From: Edaphocola flava
GTDB lineage: Bacteria; Bacteroidota; Bacteroidia; Chitinophagales; Chitinophagaceae
Direction: 5' to 3'
Length of the DNA stretch: 64,000 nucleotides
NCBI RefSeq assembly: GCF_004118155.1
Contig: NZ_SAIQ01000003.1
Location: 434,001-498,000 of the forward strand
Position numbers and translations under genes: made by a program. The number at the start of each line of letters is the position of its first letter. The stretch's first letter is position 1. The notes under the pieces were generated by a model that worked only from the letters and a program-made list of their open reading frames with translations, made no database searches and was not told the origin of the DNA. Shown piece by piece: positions 3,088 to 62,013 of the stretch.

Positions 3088-3248
3088 ACAGGGTATCCAC
3101 TAAAAGGAAACAAAATTTAGCATTATAATTTAAGTAGCCTATATATCTATTGCTACCTTTTGCCTTGATGAAAACAAAGTCATTTTTGGTCCTTTCGTTG
3201 CAGGATAAAAGGAGGAAGAAAATAGTAGACTATATGCGGATAGTAGGT
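3088..3248 (+). mobile_element. Short deletion derivative (copy D) of the intergenic MITE-like element
   Basis: 161 bp. The left part matches the first ~83 bp of the 480-bp copy at 39436 and the right part its last ~78 bp, joined at the 9-bp word GCCTTGATG that occurs twice in the full element, 320 bp apart (39510-39518 and 39830-39838). 480 minus 320 predicts 160 bp, close to what is seen. Ends are degenerate (ACAGGGTATCCAC and GCGGATAGTAGGT). No convincing target duplication. It ends 5 bp before the terminator hairpin of the next gene. Confidence 0.75.
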
Positions 3249-4378: not shown

Positions 4379-4890
4379 TTTGTATATTGTATTTAAGCTC
4401 CTGTTTTCAGAAAGCCTGATCAGATATTGCTGCTCCATGATTTTAAAGCAGTGTTTCGTTTGGATTTGCGGCAATAAAGAATCGTCAGGGATAGTGCCTA
4501 TGTGGCCTAAACATAAATACGCTTACACAAAATGTACGCACGCATGAAAGCAGGAAAACAGTCGCAGAATAATATTCAGCCAAAAGAAGTGTTCGCTACT
4601 TGTTACAACAAGACTATACCCTGTTTGTGTGTCACACCAGGTATATGTATTGAAACCGTAAATCTTTGTTGGGCTGTATATTGGAAAGGACTTGTACAAT
4701 AAGCATAACTTCTATCCATAAACGTTCATAAAGTTCGTGCCGGAATGCAGCACTGTCTTTATTCGCCAGAAAGAAATTATATTTTACATGCTTATTATAT
4801 TTTGTTTGAAGAATGCAAATGTACAAAAAATACTAAAGTAACAGGCAGTTGTCTTCACAGCACTTCACTACTATCATACATAAATAAGAG
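4379..4890. other. Intergenic region upstream of the Cfr-like gene
   Basis: About 510 bp with no gene I can defend. Short open frames exist on both strands (for example minus 4826-4632, 64 codons) but have no recognisable product, start signal or codon bias. It should contain the promoter of the Cfr-like gene; no clear TAnnTTTG box was found for it. Confidence 0.5.
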
Positions 4891-4915
4891 AACAGCGATT
4901 TATCAAATCGCTGTT
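4891..4915 (-). terminator. Terminator of the ALDH-AraC-SDR operon
   Basis: 11-bp perfect stem AACAGCGATTT with a 3-nt loop, followed on the minus strand by T-rich sequence, 18 bp beyond the SDR stop at 4934. Confidence 0.75.
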
Positions 4916-4933
4916 TATGATATTCATTTTATC

Positions 4934-5731
4934 TTACAGACAACGAATCGTACCCCCATCGACTCTTAATACCGCACCGCTGATATAATCAGCATAACGG
5001 CTGCAGAGATAAGCTACGGCGCCTGCAATTTCTTCAGGTGTTCCGAATCTGCCGGTATCATTCGGAATGAGTTCCTGTACCGCTTTATACCTGATCTCTT
5101 CCGGATCACTACCCCATCCGAATTTCGGTGCAGCCTGCTCCAGCCATTGCTCCACCATAGGGTTGATGATGGCGCCCGGCGATACAACATTGGACGTGAT
5201 GCCGGTTTCTTTAAGCTGCCTGGCCAGTGATACAGACATATTATGATGGGCCGCCAGCGTTGCATTATAATGCGGTTGTTCTTTAATCGGTTGTATGCCC
5301 AGTCCGCCACCGATGTGTATGACCCTGCCCCATCCGAGCAGTTTCATCTGTGGAACAATCCGTTGTACCATACGAACATAAGAAACCACATTGGTATTAT
5401 ACAGATCCAGCCAGTCTTCTGCACTTGCTTCACCCCATGACTGATGCGATGTTGCTCCGGCATTATTAATCAGAATATCCACCGGCCCTGACTTCAATGC
5501 GGCGGCGGCTACTGCATCTGCTCCTTCATTTGTGGAAAGGTCTCCTATGGCAACCTCTGCCGATCCGCCGGAAGCTATAATTTCAGCGGCAACTTCTTCG
5601 GCTCTTTTACGATTACGTCCATGTATAATAACCATGGCACCTTCACTGGCGAGCATTTTAGCAATGGCTTCGCCTAAACCGGAACTTGATCCGGTGACCA
5701 GGGCACGCATGCCCCTTACTTGTATGTCCAT
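4934..5731 (-). CDS. SDR-family protein lacking the catalytic Ser and Lys
   Basis: 265-aa Rossmann-fold protein of the classical short-chain dehydrogenase/reductase family. The cofactor motif TGSSSGLG is at residues 13-20, NNAG at 89-92, and the C-terminal LRVDGG motif is present. The active-site Tyr is Y155 (PHYNATLAA), but the Lys four residues on is L159, and the position of the catalytic Ser 13 residues before the Tyr is G142 in a GGGLG stretch. Either it uses unusual chemistry or it is a binding protein; some annotated SDR subfamilies carry the same YNATLA motif. It is the last gene of an operon with an aldehyde dehydrogenase and an AraC regulator, so a role in aldehyde/alcohol metabolism is plausible but not shown. 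Confidence 0.85.
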   Translation of the reverse strand: MDIQVRGMRALVTGSSSGLGEAIAKMLASEGAMVIIHGRNRKRAEEVAAEIIASGGSAEVAIGDLSTNEGADAVAAAALKSGPVDILINNAGATSHQSWGEASAEDWLDLYNTNVVSYVRMVQRIVPQMKLLGWGRVIHIGGGLGIQPIKEQPHYNATLAAHHNMSVSLARQLKETGITSNVVSPGAIINPMVEQWLEQAAPKFGWGSDPEEIRYKAVQELIPNDTGRFGTPEEIAGAVAYLCSRYADYISGAVLRVDGGTIRCL

Positions 5732-5750
5732 CTTTTAATTGATTTTTATG

Positions 5751-6581
5751 CTATGAATATTTTTTATTTGGTGCATAACCAAAGGCCTTTTTATAGGCAA
5801 AAGAGAAATGTGAGAGGTCCTCGAAACCCAGGTCCAGGTACACATCAGAAGGTTTTTCTTTTCGCTCTTCGATCAGGAAACGGGCGGCTTCCAACCGCTT
5901 TTGTACCAACCATCTGCTCGGGCTGATATGATATATCTTTTCAAAATCGCGCTTGAATCCCGAAAGGCTACGCCCTGTAAGGAAGGCAAACCGATCCATA
6001 GGTACATTATACCTGTAATGGCTGTTCATAAAGGCTTCCAGGTCTATCTTGCCCGGCTCACTAAAGTCGAAGAGTGCATTTTTAAACCCGGGATTATGTT
6101 GTATCAGCAGCAAAACAAGCTCTCTTGTTTTCAAAGCAACAATGCGTTCATCTTGCTGTTGCTGCTGCAGATAAGGAACCAATGAGTCAACAAAACCTTT
6201 CAACAGGATATCGGACTGTATCAGTATCGGCACTTCAGGAGGAAAACTTCCGTCGGCCTTTAGCCCGTATTGCTCGCTCATCTCCCTTAATGTGGACTGA
6301 TCGATATGTACGGCTATAGATCTGAAACTGCCGTCAGTTGTACTTTTGACGTATTTAGTAAGCTGGTTCCTTCTGAAGAAGCGAAAGTCTCCTTCACGAT
6401 AGGCATATTTATGATCGGCAAGCCAGACATCCTGTTTACCCTGCAGGATGTAACTGAAAATATGGTCGGCCACAAAAGCTTCCCCTTCGATATTGGCACC
6501 GGAATAGCTATTCAATACTATCCTGGGCCCCATACCGGGATCCTTTACACTATTTCCTGAGCGGTCATTTTTGCATTCCAT
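5751..6581 (-). CDS. AraC-family transcriptional regulator
   Basis: 276 aa. The N-terminal ~160 residues form a cupin-like sensing domain (LQGKQDVWLADHKYAYREGD), followed by two helix-turn-helix units from about residue 175 to the end, with the family signature DLGFEDLSHFSFAYKKAFG near the C terminus. It binds DNA in the cytoplasm and usually activates neighbouring genes. The gene sits between the ALDH gene (5 bp upstream) and the SDR gene (19 bp downstream), so it is co-transcribed with its probable targets and likely autoregulated. Ligand unknown. Confidence 0.9.
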   Translation of the reverse strand: MECKNDRSGNSVKDPGMGPRIVLNSYSGANIEGEAFVADHIFSYILQGKQDVWLADHKYAYREGDFRFFRRNQLTKYVKSTTDGSFRSIAVHIDQSTLREMSEQYGLKADGSFPPEVPILIQSDILLKGFVDSLVPYLQQQQQDERIVALKTRELVLLLIQHNPGFKNALFDFSEPGKIDLEAFMNSHYRYNVPMDRFAFLTGRSLSGFKRDFEKIYHISPSRWLVQKRLEAARFLIEERKEKPSDVYLDLGFEDLSHFSFAYKKAFGYAPNKKYS

Positions 6582-6586
6582 AATGA

Positions 6587-8002
6587 TCAGCTGATGATTA
6601 CTTTTGGTTCTAATTGTTCTTCCAGTCCATAAACGCCGCCTTCTCTGCCTACACCGGACTGTTTAAATCCACCGAATGGTGCCAGTGCATCATGATAGAT
6701 GGTATTGATGGCCACGCGTCCTGCATTAATCTGAGCGGCAACTTTGCGGGCCCGTTCCATATCCGATGAACTTACATATGCATGCAAGCCATAAATGGTA
6801 TCATTGGCAATGGCGATAGCCTCTTCTTCTGTTTTATAAGTAATAACTGATAATACCGGACCGAAGATCTCTTCCTGGGCAATTGTCATATCGTTATTTA
6901 CTCCTGTAAATATAGTGGGTTTGACATAAAACCCGTCCTGCAATCCTGCTGGTTTACCCGGACCGCCTGCTAAAAGTTCTGCCCCTTCTTCTATACCCAG
7001 GTTGATATAATGCTGTATACGATCAAACTGTTTCTGACTGGCCATCGGACCTATGACTGTATGCTCATCGCGCGGATCGCCTACTGTTTGTTTGGCTACG
7101 GTCTCCAGCAGGATGCGCTTAACCTCGGGCAGCAGTGCTTCCGGCACCAATAGCCGGGTACCTGCAATACAAGCCTGGCCGCTATTCATAAAAGCAGCAT
7201 TTACCGCCATCGGGATAGCGGTCTCCAGATGGGCATCGTCAAGAATGATATTTGGTGATTTGCCACTGAGTTCAAGCGTTATGCGTTTCATGGTATCTAC
7301 TGCATTCCGGGCAATGATCTTGCCAACAAGGGTAGACCCTGTGAACAGGATCTTAACTACAGCAGGATGTGTAGATAATACGGTACCCAGTACATCGCCT
7401 CTGCCATGCACCATATTGATCACTCCCGGAGGAAGGCCTGCACGATCAAAACATTTGGCCAATACCTGCGACTGTATAGCGCTCATTTCACTGGGCTTGA
7501 TCACCACAGTACACCCTGCAGCAATAGCCGCAGCCAGCTTTACGCTGATAGACCCTGAATTGGCATTCCATGCGGTCATGATTGCAGTAACTCCTACCGG
7601 TACCATGGATATTGTAGACTGACCCATGTTGCGCTCAAACTCAAAATCCTTAAGGATGTCTTTAAAATACAGGAAAGTTTCTGCTGCATACTGGTTTGAC
7701 CAGCGGGACCGCTGTACTGTAGCGCCATACTCGGTCGTAGTTGCCTCCTGCAGATCGTCGATCCGCTCCATTAGGGCATCATGCAGACGCTGCAGATAAT
7801 CCATACGTTGTGTGCTGCTTGTTTGCGCAAAAGTTGGCAAAGCAGCCGAAGCAGCAGCTATTGCAGCTGTTATATCCAGCTCATTGCCCAATACTACCTT
7901 GCCAATTTGGTTTCCATCAGAAGGATTGATGATATCCATCTCCTCTGTTCCAGTCGAAGGAATGAATCTTCCATTGACATAATGCTGATTGATTATTTTC
8001 AT
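6587..8002 (-). CDS. NAD(P)-dependent aldehyde dehydrogenase
   Basis: 471-aa member of the aldehyde dehydrogenase superfamily, oxidising an aldehyde to the acid with NAD(P)+. Visible active-site residues are N147 (TAWNANSG), E244 (LELSGKSP) and the nucleophile C278 (NSGQACIAG); the cofactor-binding GSTLVGK is at about 222-228. The ATG at 8002 gives the usual start (MKIINQHYVNGRF); the ATG at 8050 would add 16 residues and overlap the promoter box. First gene of the ALDH-AraC-SDR operon. The substrate cannot be read from sequence. Confidence 0.93.
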   Translation of the reverse strand: MKIINQHYVNGRFIPSTGTEEMDIINPSDGNQIGKVVLGNELDITAAIAAASAALPTFAQTSSTQRMDYLQRLHDALMERIDDLQEATTTEYGATVQRSRWSNQYAAETFLYFKDILKDFEFERNMGQSTISMVPVGVTAIMTAWNANSGSISVKLAAAIAAGCTVVIKPSEMSAIQSQVLAKCFDRAGLPPGVINMVHGRGDVLGTVLSTHPAVVKILFTGSTLVGKIIARNAVDTMKRITLELSGKSPNIILDDAHLETAIPMAVNAAFMNSGQACIAGTRLLVPEALLPEVKRILLETVAKQTVGDPRDEHTVIGPMASQKQFDRIQHYINLGIEEGAELLAGGPGKPAGLQDGFYVKPTIFTGVNNDMTIAQEEIFGPVLSVITYKTEEEAIAIANDTIYGLHAYVSSSDMERARKVAAQINAGRVAINTIYHDALAPFGGFKQSGVGREGGVYGLEEQLEPKVIIS

Positions 8003-20792: not shown

Positions 20793-20920
20793 ACTGACTA
20801 TCCACATGTAGTCAACTATTTTCTTCGTCCTTTTGTCCGGCAACAAAAGAACCAAAAGATATAAATAGAATGCCTAAATCATAAGGCCAATCTTTGTTTC
20901 CTTTAAGCGGATAACTCAGT
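20793..20920 (-). mobile_element. Short deletion derivative (copy E) of the MITE-like element, inverted
   Basis: 128 bp, opposite in orientation to the other copies. Ends are ACTGACTATCC and GCGGATAACTCAGT. Read on the minus strand it equals the left ~65 bp and right ~63 bp of the 480-bp element, joined at TTTTG, which occurs at 39496-39500 and 39852-39856 in the full copy (356 bp apart; 480 minus 356 is 124). Flanks TTGCATAA and TAGCATAT agree at 6 of 8 positions, fitting an old 8-bp target duplication. Confidence 0.75.
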
Positions 20921-33258: not shown

Positions 33259-33291
33259 GGCCGGATTTATTAGGCCATTTTTGAGCGATCT
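33259..33291. repeat. Fragment related to the MITE-like element interior
   Basis: GGCCGGATTTATTAGGCC followed by GAGCGATCT matches bases around 39655-39686 of the full element with few changes. No terminal repeats nearby. Confidence 0.5.
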
Positions 33292-33306
33292 ATTCTATAC
33301 TGAGTA

Positions 33307-33523
33307 CTTCGTCATATCGACCGAAGCATCAGCCTAGTGGAGATATCTCCTGATCGCTTGAGAAATAGAGGAGATTTCTCGACGCCGCTACGCTGTGCTC
33401 GAAATGACGGGAATAAAAAGCTACGCTAGTACACGGTCTGAAATGCGTACAACATTGTCGCTTTGAGCTTTCCTCTCCTGCTTCGTCATATCGACCGGAG
33501 TGCAAAGAAGCGGAGATATCTCA
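33307..33523. repeat. Short intergenic repeats with GAGATATCTC palindromes
   Basis: CTTCGTCATATCGACCGAAG (33307-33326) recurs with one change at 33481-33500. Each is followed by a GAGATATCTC palindrome (33340-33349 and 33513-33522), and the first also by GGAGATTTCTCGACG and CTCGAAATGACGG. This style of repeat is widespread between Bacteroidota genes. Confidence 0.65.
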
Positions 33524-39181: not shown

Positions 39182-39435
39182 GAATAACTTGATTTAATCC
39201 TTCTTTAAAAGTATTACAATATCGGCAGAACCTTAAATCTGCCCCTGTTTTATAACATAACTTTACAAATACATAGTTTGTACATATCCCTCAGTATATG
39301 GTTACAGGCTTTTCGTAATATCATCAACGACCAGTTTTTCATATTGCGGAGCACCCCCAACTGCCCTACAACAGTAAGACAGCAAGTGTAATGAGCCTCA
39401 TCTCAGATTGGTATTTAAGTAAGCTAAAATTATAT
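39182..39435. other. Intergenic region upstream of the tlpA gene
   Basis: About 250 bp with no gene and no clear structured element; it should contain the promoter of the tlpA-redoxin pair. Its right edge is the target duplication of element copy A (39428-39435). Confidence 0.5.
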
Positions 39436-39923
39436 ACTGAGTATCCGCTTAAAGGAAATAAAGTTTAGCATTATGATTTAAGTATCCTATATATCTTTTG
39501 CTACCTTTTGCCTTGATGCAAAAGGTACCGCCAAAAAATCAAGGCTGTATAAATCCCTGGCTAAAAATCAATGTGTCGGTCGGTCGCAAACCAGACTCAC
39601 TTCGTTCAGACAGTGGTTTCCGACTTTATCGACCGAGCCAATGATTTTATTAACGCCGGATTTATAAGGCCATTCTAAGCGATCTGTATTTGTACAGATC
39701 GCTTATTGTTTTCATCACAGCGATAGCTATTTTGGAGTGGAGCTGCGATCGTTGAGCAGCGAACGGATCACACGTTAAGCTCAGACGATCAATGCACGCA
39801 ACGGTACAAAATGGCGGTGCCCCGCAATCGCCTTGATGAAAACAAAGGCATTTTTGGTCCTTTTGTTGCCAGACAAAAGGACGAAGAAAATAGTGACTAC
39901 ATACGGATAGTCAGTAATTATAT
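39428..39923 (+). mobile_element. MITE-like element, full-length copy A, with 8-bp target duplication
   Basis: The element is 39436-39915 (480 bp). It starts ACTGAGTATCCGC and ends ACGGATAGTCAGT, imperfect inverted repeats. The flanks are identical 8-bp AATTATAT repeats (39428-39435 and 39916-39923), as left by transposition. No coding frame is shared between copies. Inside are hairpins: TACCTTTTGC/GCAAAAGGTA near 39502-39527, AAGCGATCTGTA/TACAGATCGCTT near 39677-39704, and GTCCTTTTGT/ACAAAAGGAC near 39857-39882. Confidence 0.88.
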
Positions 39924-61518: not shown

Positions 61519-62013
61519 AAGTATAAACTGAGTATCCGCTTAAAGGAAATAAAGTTTAGCATTATGATTTAAGTATCCTATATATCTTTTGCTACCTTTT
61601 GCCTTGAAGCAAAAGGTACCGCCAAAAAATCAAGGCTGTATAAATCCCTGGCTAAAAATCAATGTGTCGGCCGGTCGCAAACCAGAACGCTGCGCTCAGA
61701 CAGTGGTTTACGAATTATCGACCGAGCCAATGATTTTACTAACGCCGGATTTATAAGGCCTTTCTAAGCGATCTGTACTTGTACGGATCGCTTAATGTTT
61801 TCATCACAGCGATAGCCATTTTGGAGTGGAGATGCGATCGTTGAGCGCCGAACGCATCACACGTTAAGCTCAAACGATCAATGCACGCAACGGTACAAAA
61901 TGGCGGTGCTTTGCAATCGCCTTGATGAAAACAAAGGCATTTTTGGTCCTTTTGTTGCCGGACAAAAGGACGAATAAAATAGTTACCTAAATGCGGATAG
62001 TCAGTAAGTATCA
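61519..62013 (+). mobile_element. MITE-like element, full-length copy B, with 8-bp target duplication
   Basis: The element is 61527-62005 (479 bp), highly similar to copy A over its whole length. Ends ACTGAGTATCCGC and GCGGATAGTCAGT are complementary at 12 of 13 positions. Flanks AAGTATAA (61519-61526) and AAGTATCA (62006-62013) match at 7 of 8. In the hairpin near 61767-61794 most pairs are kept, one as G-T. An 87-codon frame on the minus strand (61751-62014) is not kept in copy A, so it is not a gene. Confidence 0.88.

Follow-up and report, generated by a model that had tools for sequence, protein, structure and literature searches.

Short, multi-copy elements with inverted ends and no transposase have been described in other Bacteroidota. 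MITECca01 of Cardinium (derived from IS982) and BrickBuilt of Porphyromonas gingivalis are of this build; both differ from the family described here in parent family and ends, and the duplication length of BrickBuilt is inconstant. Likenesses are also found among autonomous elements of the IS1595 family. ISBbi1 and its relatives (Bacteroides, Myroides, and Sphingobacterium plasmids) have similar ends (TTCTGATTCTCCG / TTCTGATTATCCG) and a transposase 40% identical to a gene of Edaphocola aurantiacus, but they are approximately 1 kb long, carry their own transposase, and differ at the inner end; no 8-bp duplication could be fixed in the copies compared. ISAcr1 from Acidiphilium has the ends CTTGCCTATCCGG within an exact 8-bp duplication and in the same register as in our family, but it is autonomous. 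The GGCA-ended IS1595 elements of the genomes studied here make 8-bp AT-rich duplications, e.g., TAAATTTA, but have other ends and a transposase of another clade. IS1595 members usually duplicate 8 bp (PMC8101967), and AT-rich duplications are preferred by ISApl4 (PMC12561309).

The window (the whole 64,000-nt stretch of the Edaphocola flava genome that was analyzed) contains the following copies and parts of a repeat:

39436-39915, plus strand: full-length MITE copy A, 480 bp; site empty in E. aurantiacus
39428-39435, unstranded: left target duplication of copy A, AATTATAT, 8 bp
39916-39923, unstranded: right target duplication of copy A, AATTATAT, 8 bp
61527-62005, plus strand: full-length MITE copy B, 479 bp, with convergent ORFs on either side; site empty
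61519-61526, unstranded: left duplication of copy B, AAGTATAA
62006-62013, unstranded: right duplication of copy B, AAGTATCA
3088-3248, plus strand: internally deleted short copy, 161 bp, common to E. aurantiacus
20793-20920, minus strand: internally deleted short copy, approximately 128 bp, near-identical in build to the copy at locus L055
12155-12499, plus strand: internal MITE fragment with no recognizable ends

The initial annotation had presented copies A and B as a MITE-like element and its near-repeat. This was confirmed: copy B is 94% identical to copy A, and the flanks match at 8/8 positions for copy A and, as had been noted, at 7/8 for copy B. The two short copies and the fragment had been overlooked. 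The fragment corresponds to MITE positions 53-253 followed by 361-412 at 97% identity, and E. aurantiacus has a full MITE copy within the same flanks. A BLAST search of the host genome (3.54 Mb), which had been suggested as a check of copy number, gave 43 matches at approximately 40 places (40 of 100 candidates scored). Identity among twenty host copies was 86-96% (median, 91%), and short copies of 101-163 bp retained the ends with the interior mostly gone. The end sequence ACTGASTATCCG occurred 32 times in the host genome, compared with 0 for the reversed control; one partnerless occurrence (L058) looks like chance. The inverted terminal repeats (ACTGAsTATCCGC) set consistent boundaries, and copies shared the boundary at the ACTGA ends, as predicted. 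No transposase is encoded, and no conserved ORF was found in 38 aligned copies, in agreement with the original claim: the longest ATG ORF was 25-91 aa (median, 60), spread over all six frames. The repeat is a non-autonomous MITE family. In the parts of the literature accessible to us, we found no description of it.

Of the copies at 120 loci, 55 were retained on the basis of their length and the quality of their ends, and target duplications were analyzed in these 55, which include orthologous pairs. The 8-bp flanks were 84% identical, whereas shuffling the flanks 200 times gave 50% and at most 55%; at the other lengths between 3 and 13, identity was 36-56%. An exact 8-bp duplication was present in 29/55 copies against an expectation of 0.7, and 7, 7, 2, 7, and 3 copies matched at 7, 6, 5, 4, and 3 positions, respectively. 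The target is AT-rich, with a consensus near TAATATTA. The constant duplication length of 8 bp bears out the original view of a non-autonomous transposon moved by an 8-bp-duplicating enzyme.

Sites were compared with those of the sister E. aurantiacus H2, whose flanks are approximately 95% identical. Among 52 host copies, 9 sites were empty in the sister, 10 were occupied, and 33 were unclassifiable (stretch unfetched or unaligned). Both window sites of full-length copies were empty, as the proposed check of relatives had anticipated. The copy A site holds a single AATTATAT, followed by two extra bases, with a diverged stretch further left. At the copy B site, the sister has a single AAAGTATCA, with AAAGTATCAATAAT read once; the empty site reads AAGTATCA, showing that the left duplication AAGTATAA of copy B has mutated. 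At the empty sites, the two flanks overlapped by roughly the length of a duplication; the measured values ranged from -5 to -16 and were -8 at two sites, and the most extreme one is due to an end set 7 bp short. Nine of the occupied sites were common to both species, and one contained an independent insertion. At this last site, an orthologous intergenic one (L021 and L045), the two insertions are 6 bp apart and in opposite orientation, with the duplications AAATACAA and TTTAATAT. An ordinary intergenic repeat of the ERIC or BOX kind, vertically inherited and immobile, would fit the nine common sites, but the nine empty sites with their overlapping flanks, as well as the duplications themselves, make this very improbable. 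With nine empty sites, nine common sites, and an independent insertion, the element is not shared at all sites, an outcome that would have spoken against mobility. These data show that MITE copies have inserted since the split of the host and E. aurantiacus. Ends, duplications, and empty sites are resolved for this MITE family, which numbers dozens of copies.

The short form was also mobile. Three sites of short copies (121, 155, and 163 bp) were empty in E. aurantiacus, and the 128-bp copies at 20793 and L055 were near-identical, indicating that the short form spreads as such. The site of the short copy at 20793-20920 itself was unaligned in E. aurantiacus and is unclassified.

Next to the host, same-genus genomes had 45 (E. 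aurantiacus H2) and 60 (Taibaiella sp. KBW10) MITE matches, and few, partial matches were found in genomes G004 (14) and G002 (2). A longer end pattern was detected in 5/294 Chitinophagaceae genomes (control, 0), three of the Edaphocola type and two Taibaiella (the T. lutea-like G510 and T. lutea). G510 contained 183 end matches at ≤3 mismatches (control, 0); among the matches listed (approximately 100 of 183), the ends flank short MITEs whose lengths are approximately 131 and 300-360 bp and whose interiors differ from that of the host MITE, and large inverted pairs considered as a parent resolved into such short MITEs. The 131-bp MITEs of G510 (L231, L241, L246, L262) have like ends and an interior of TGCTTCGACAAGCTCAG-like hairpins. 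In T. lutea (KVB11), elements of approximately 262 bp have such ends, and the interior of two of them (L187, L195) repeats a CCCGTAGGGATTTAATA phrase. A scan of named genomes for the end pattern yielded 26 stretches: 16 from E. aurantiacus, 5 from KBW10, 2 from T. lutea, 2 from Saprospiraceae, and 1 from a cyanobacterial MAG, which looks like chance. On the two Saprospiraceae MAG contigs, the elements bearing ends of this kind measure approximately 133 and 222 bp, and the latter is flanked by matching AAAAATTG. Single ends in L058, L168, L172, L178, L183, and the viral contigs L278 and L279 were by inspection chance matches or located in coding sequence. When phage and plasmid records were searched with the MITE, the phage records gave nothing and the plasmids a single 59-bp match.

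The parent family had been left unnamed. We propose IS1595, and within it the ISBbi1/ISAcr1 branch, with a probability of roughly 0.8. Transposase profiles PF01609 and PF12762 were run on the five carriers; PF01609 (IS4-like DDE) was found in 0/5 and PF12762 (IS1595) in 5/5 carriers, with 14 genes. One of these, the E. aurantiacus gene at L294 (G001:C3:259944-260903), is preceded by a MITE-like end that faces it and lies 158 nt before the start codon, and its product is an IS1595 protein with zinc ribbon and DDE domains. Within 300 nt of the 13 other PF12762 genes, no MITE-like motif was found. The L294 protein shares only 26-30% identity with its best matches among the other carrier IS1595 proteins. 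Its best plasmid relatives are ISBbi1-like (39.8%), followed by Rhodococcus, ISCsp2, and ISAcr1 copies (ISAcr1, approximately 31%). In a midpoint-rooted tree, with unusual letter make-up in three rows and the broken gene L297 left out, L294 grouped with two ISBbi1-like proteins (support, 100/100), and the six-row L294 clade was split from 12 other carrier IS1595 rows (100/100). None of the other 13 carrier IS1595 matches (12 in the tree) fell on the L294 branch, and none of the four IS1595 matches in the host genome belonged to the ISBbi1/ISAcr1 branch. IS1595 genes are also present in G002, G004, and G005, genomes without these ends.

The ends point to the same branch. ISAcr1 and the MITE agree in having TG at positions 3-4 and TATCCG at positions 7-12. 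A second ISBbi1-like element has AAATGAATGTCCG at both ends, and the ends of five plasmid relatives contain TGATTCTCCG/TGATTATCCG, TGAATGTCCG twice, TGCTTATCCGG, TGCCTATCCGG, and GGGTATCCCC. An exact 8-bp duplication fixes the register in only two of these five (L353 and L354), and L354 has TATCC without TG. The likeness to family members thus extends to the TG..TATCCG core; the inner MITE end AGGAAACA is absent from the ISBbi1 and ISAcr1 ends. The 8-bp duplications agree with the family as well.

The expectation of a transposase with ACTGA[G/C]TATCCG ends was borne out only in part, by the single gene at L294 with a single end. A second end was sought at L294 and not found, and therefore we file the MITE as probable IS1595-type, not proven. 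A lone end near-identical to that of L294 is present in the host (L170/L295) beside unrelated genes, and the end at L294 may therefore be no more than a stray from a MITE. A less probable alternative is a MITE moved by a transposase of another 8-bp-duplicating family (DDE families of this kind include IS256, IS66, ISL3, IS6, and IS1) whose parent is unsampled. In line with this, an autonomous element bearing both ends was sought in 59 relatives, in 294 Chitinophagaceae, in 395 Bacteroidota, and in a second family of the order (298 genomes), and none was detected; the short contigs of G510 yielded no parent either. Beyond Edaphocola/Taibaiella, matches stayed at the chance level given by the reversed control (Bacteroidota, 7 matches outside the host genome and 8 for the control; second family, 2 and 1). 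However, the TG..TATCCG of ISAcr1 in a register set by its duplication, the ISBbi1-like ends, and the placement of L294 render an unsampled parent of another family unlikely. A search with L294 gave no viral and two weak phage matches.

Ends were resolved for 5/13 other carrier IS1595 elements (GGCA, with 8-bp AT-rich duplications), 8 being unresolved. A 4.2-kb IS1595 element in MITE copy L060 was rejected as the parent because it is nested in that copy, with ends and a target duplication of its own. This 4,219-bp element (L060 2746-6964; G000:C9) encodes a 363-aa transposase and several small unassigned ORFs, has the ends GGCATTAATATAC/GGCACTAATATAC, and is flanked on both sides by CTATTTAT. 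Beside the L294 transposase, positions 4703-6866 contain a retropepsin-like ORF and a gene for a TIR-domain protein that bears a weak resemblance to anti-phage TIR proteins. In L297 (G001:C1:81516-82133), an IS1595 transposase frame is broken by a TGA stop.

With IS1595 as the probable parent family, named here for this MITE, the transposase would bind the terminal TG..TATCCG motif. The enzyme may come from an element now gone from the host assembly or from one persisting elsewhere in the clade; L294, with its one recognizable end, could exemplify a transposase kept in the clade. The puzzle is the recent spread of the MITE in genomes where a matching transposase was not found.

The initial annotation had also suggested that folding matters. 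The predicted structure of copy A comprises five hairpins:

39502-39527, plus strand: hairpin 1, TACCTTTTGC...GCAAAAGGTA (predicted fold, pair counts)
39543-39671, plus strand: hairpin 2, large imperfect palindrome (predicted fold; mostly invariant, little covariation)
39676-39705, plus strand: hairpin 3, TAAGCGATCTGTA...TACAGATCGCTTA (predicted fold, pair counts)
39706-39845, plus strand: hairpin 4, nested (predicted fold; inner stem altered on both sides in Taibaiella sp. KBW10 copies)
39851-39888, plus strand: hairpin 5, GTCCTTTTGT...ACAAAAGGAC (predicted fold; 9/16 pairs changed on both sides)

The predicted RNA fold (-178.9 kcal/mol) is far beyond chance (z, -9.5; 100 shuffles), as is the DNA fold of the other strand (z, -10.6). 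Across 38 aligned copies, pairing is preserved in 91% of pair cells, and 39/169 pairs are changed on both sides, compared with 18.6 (SD, 3.0) in shuffles, most clearly in the inner stem of hairpin 4 and in hairpin 5. Such values would fit an interior that is a functional structured RNA or a bidirectional terminator or insulator retained by the host, with the MITE as its vehicle. Other measures speak against this: slid structures gave 21-37 double-changed pairs, with 37 when the 3' partners were slid by +1; the RNAalifold covariation term was slightly unfavorable (+0.23), with 14/81 pairs doubly changed; Rfam at the gathering threshold identified no structured-RNA family in the window, only a tRNA; and the related MITEs of G510 and T. 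lutea have quite different interiors. Template switching can homogenize hairpins without selection. With moderate confidence, the stems appear to be maintained by selection or template switching. The suggestion about folding holds for the strength of the fold and the covariation of some stems but not for mobility: short copies without most stems also spread, showing that the folds are not needed for it. The folded interior would thus be cargo dispensable for mobility.

Genomic placement bears on the same idea. Only 6/49 host copies were inside ORFs, compared with 72% of random positions (crude ORF finder). Among 40 copies between two ORFs, 25 were in convergent, 14 in tandem, and 1 (copy A) in divergent gaps. 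Of all intergenic bases, 24% lie in convergent gaps (excess of copies, P = 3e-7) and 23% in divergent gaps (deficit, P = 3e-4). A terminator-like hairpin was located within 60 bp of 15/49 copies, compared with 45/600 random intergenic and 71/600 convergent positions. All of these tests were devised after the sites had been seen, and their outcome could be explained by survivorship. The convergent bias and the nearby hairpins fit a host function of the interior; overall, we consider such a function possible but doubtful. The folded interior together with the bias toward convergent gene ends makes a test of cargo function possible. More speculatively, and improbably in our estimate, the MITE set of Edaphocola/Taibaiella may have outlived its ISBbi1-type parent in most carriers, with interchangeable, species-specific folded cargo kept as bidirectional transcription boundaries at convergent ends; one immobile transposase gene, such as that of E. 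aurantiacus, might drive all of it.

MITE-like lone ends of approximately 28 bp adjoin terminator-like hairpins at L170, L180, and L062, where no partner end was found. Separately, a palindrome at 33260-33430 of the window contains GGAGATTTCTCGA...TCGAAATGACG-like phrases and is partly common to the MITE; two variant copies, L057 and L173, have similar phrases.
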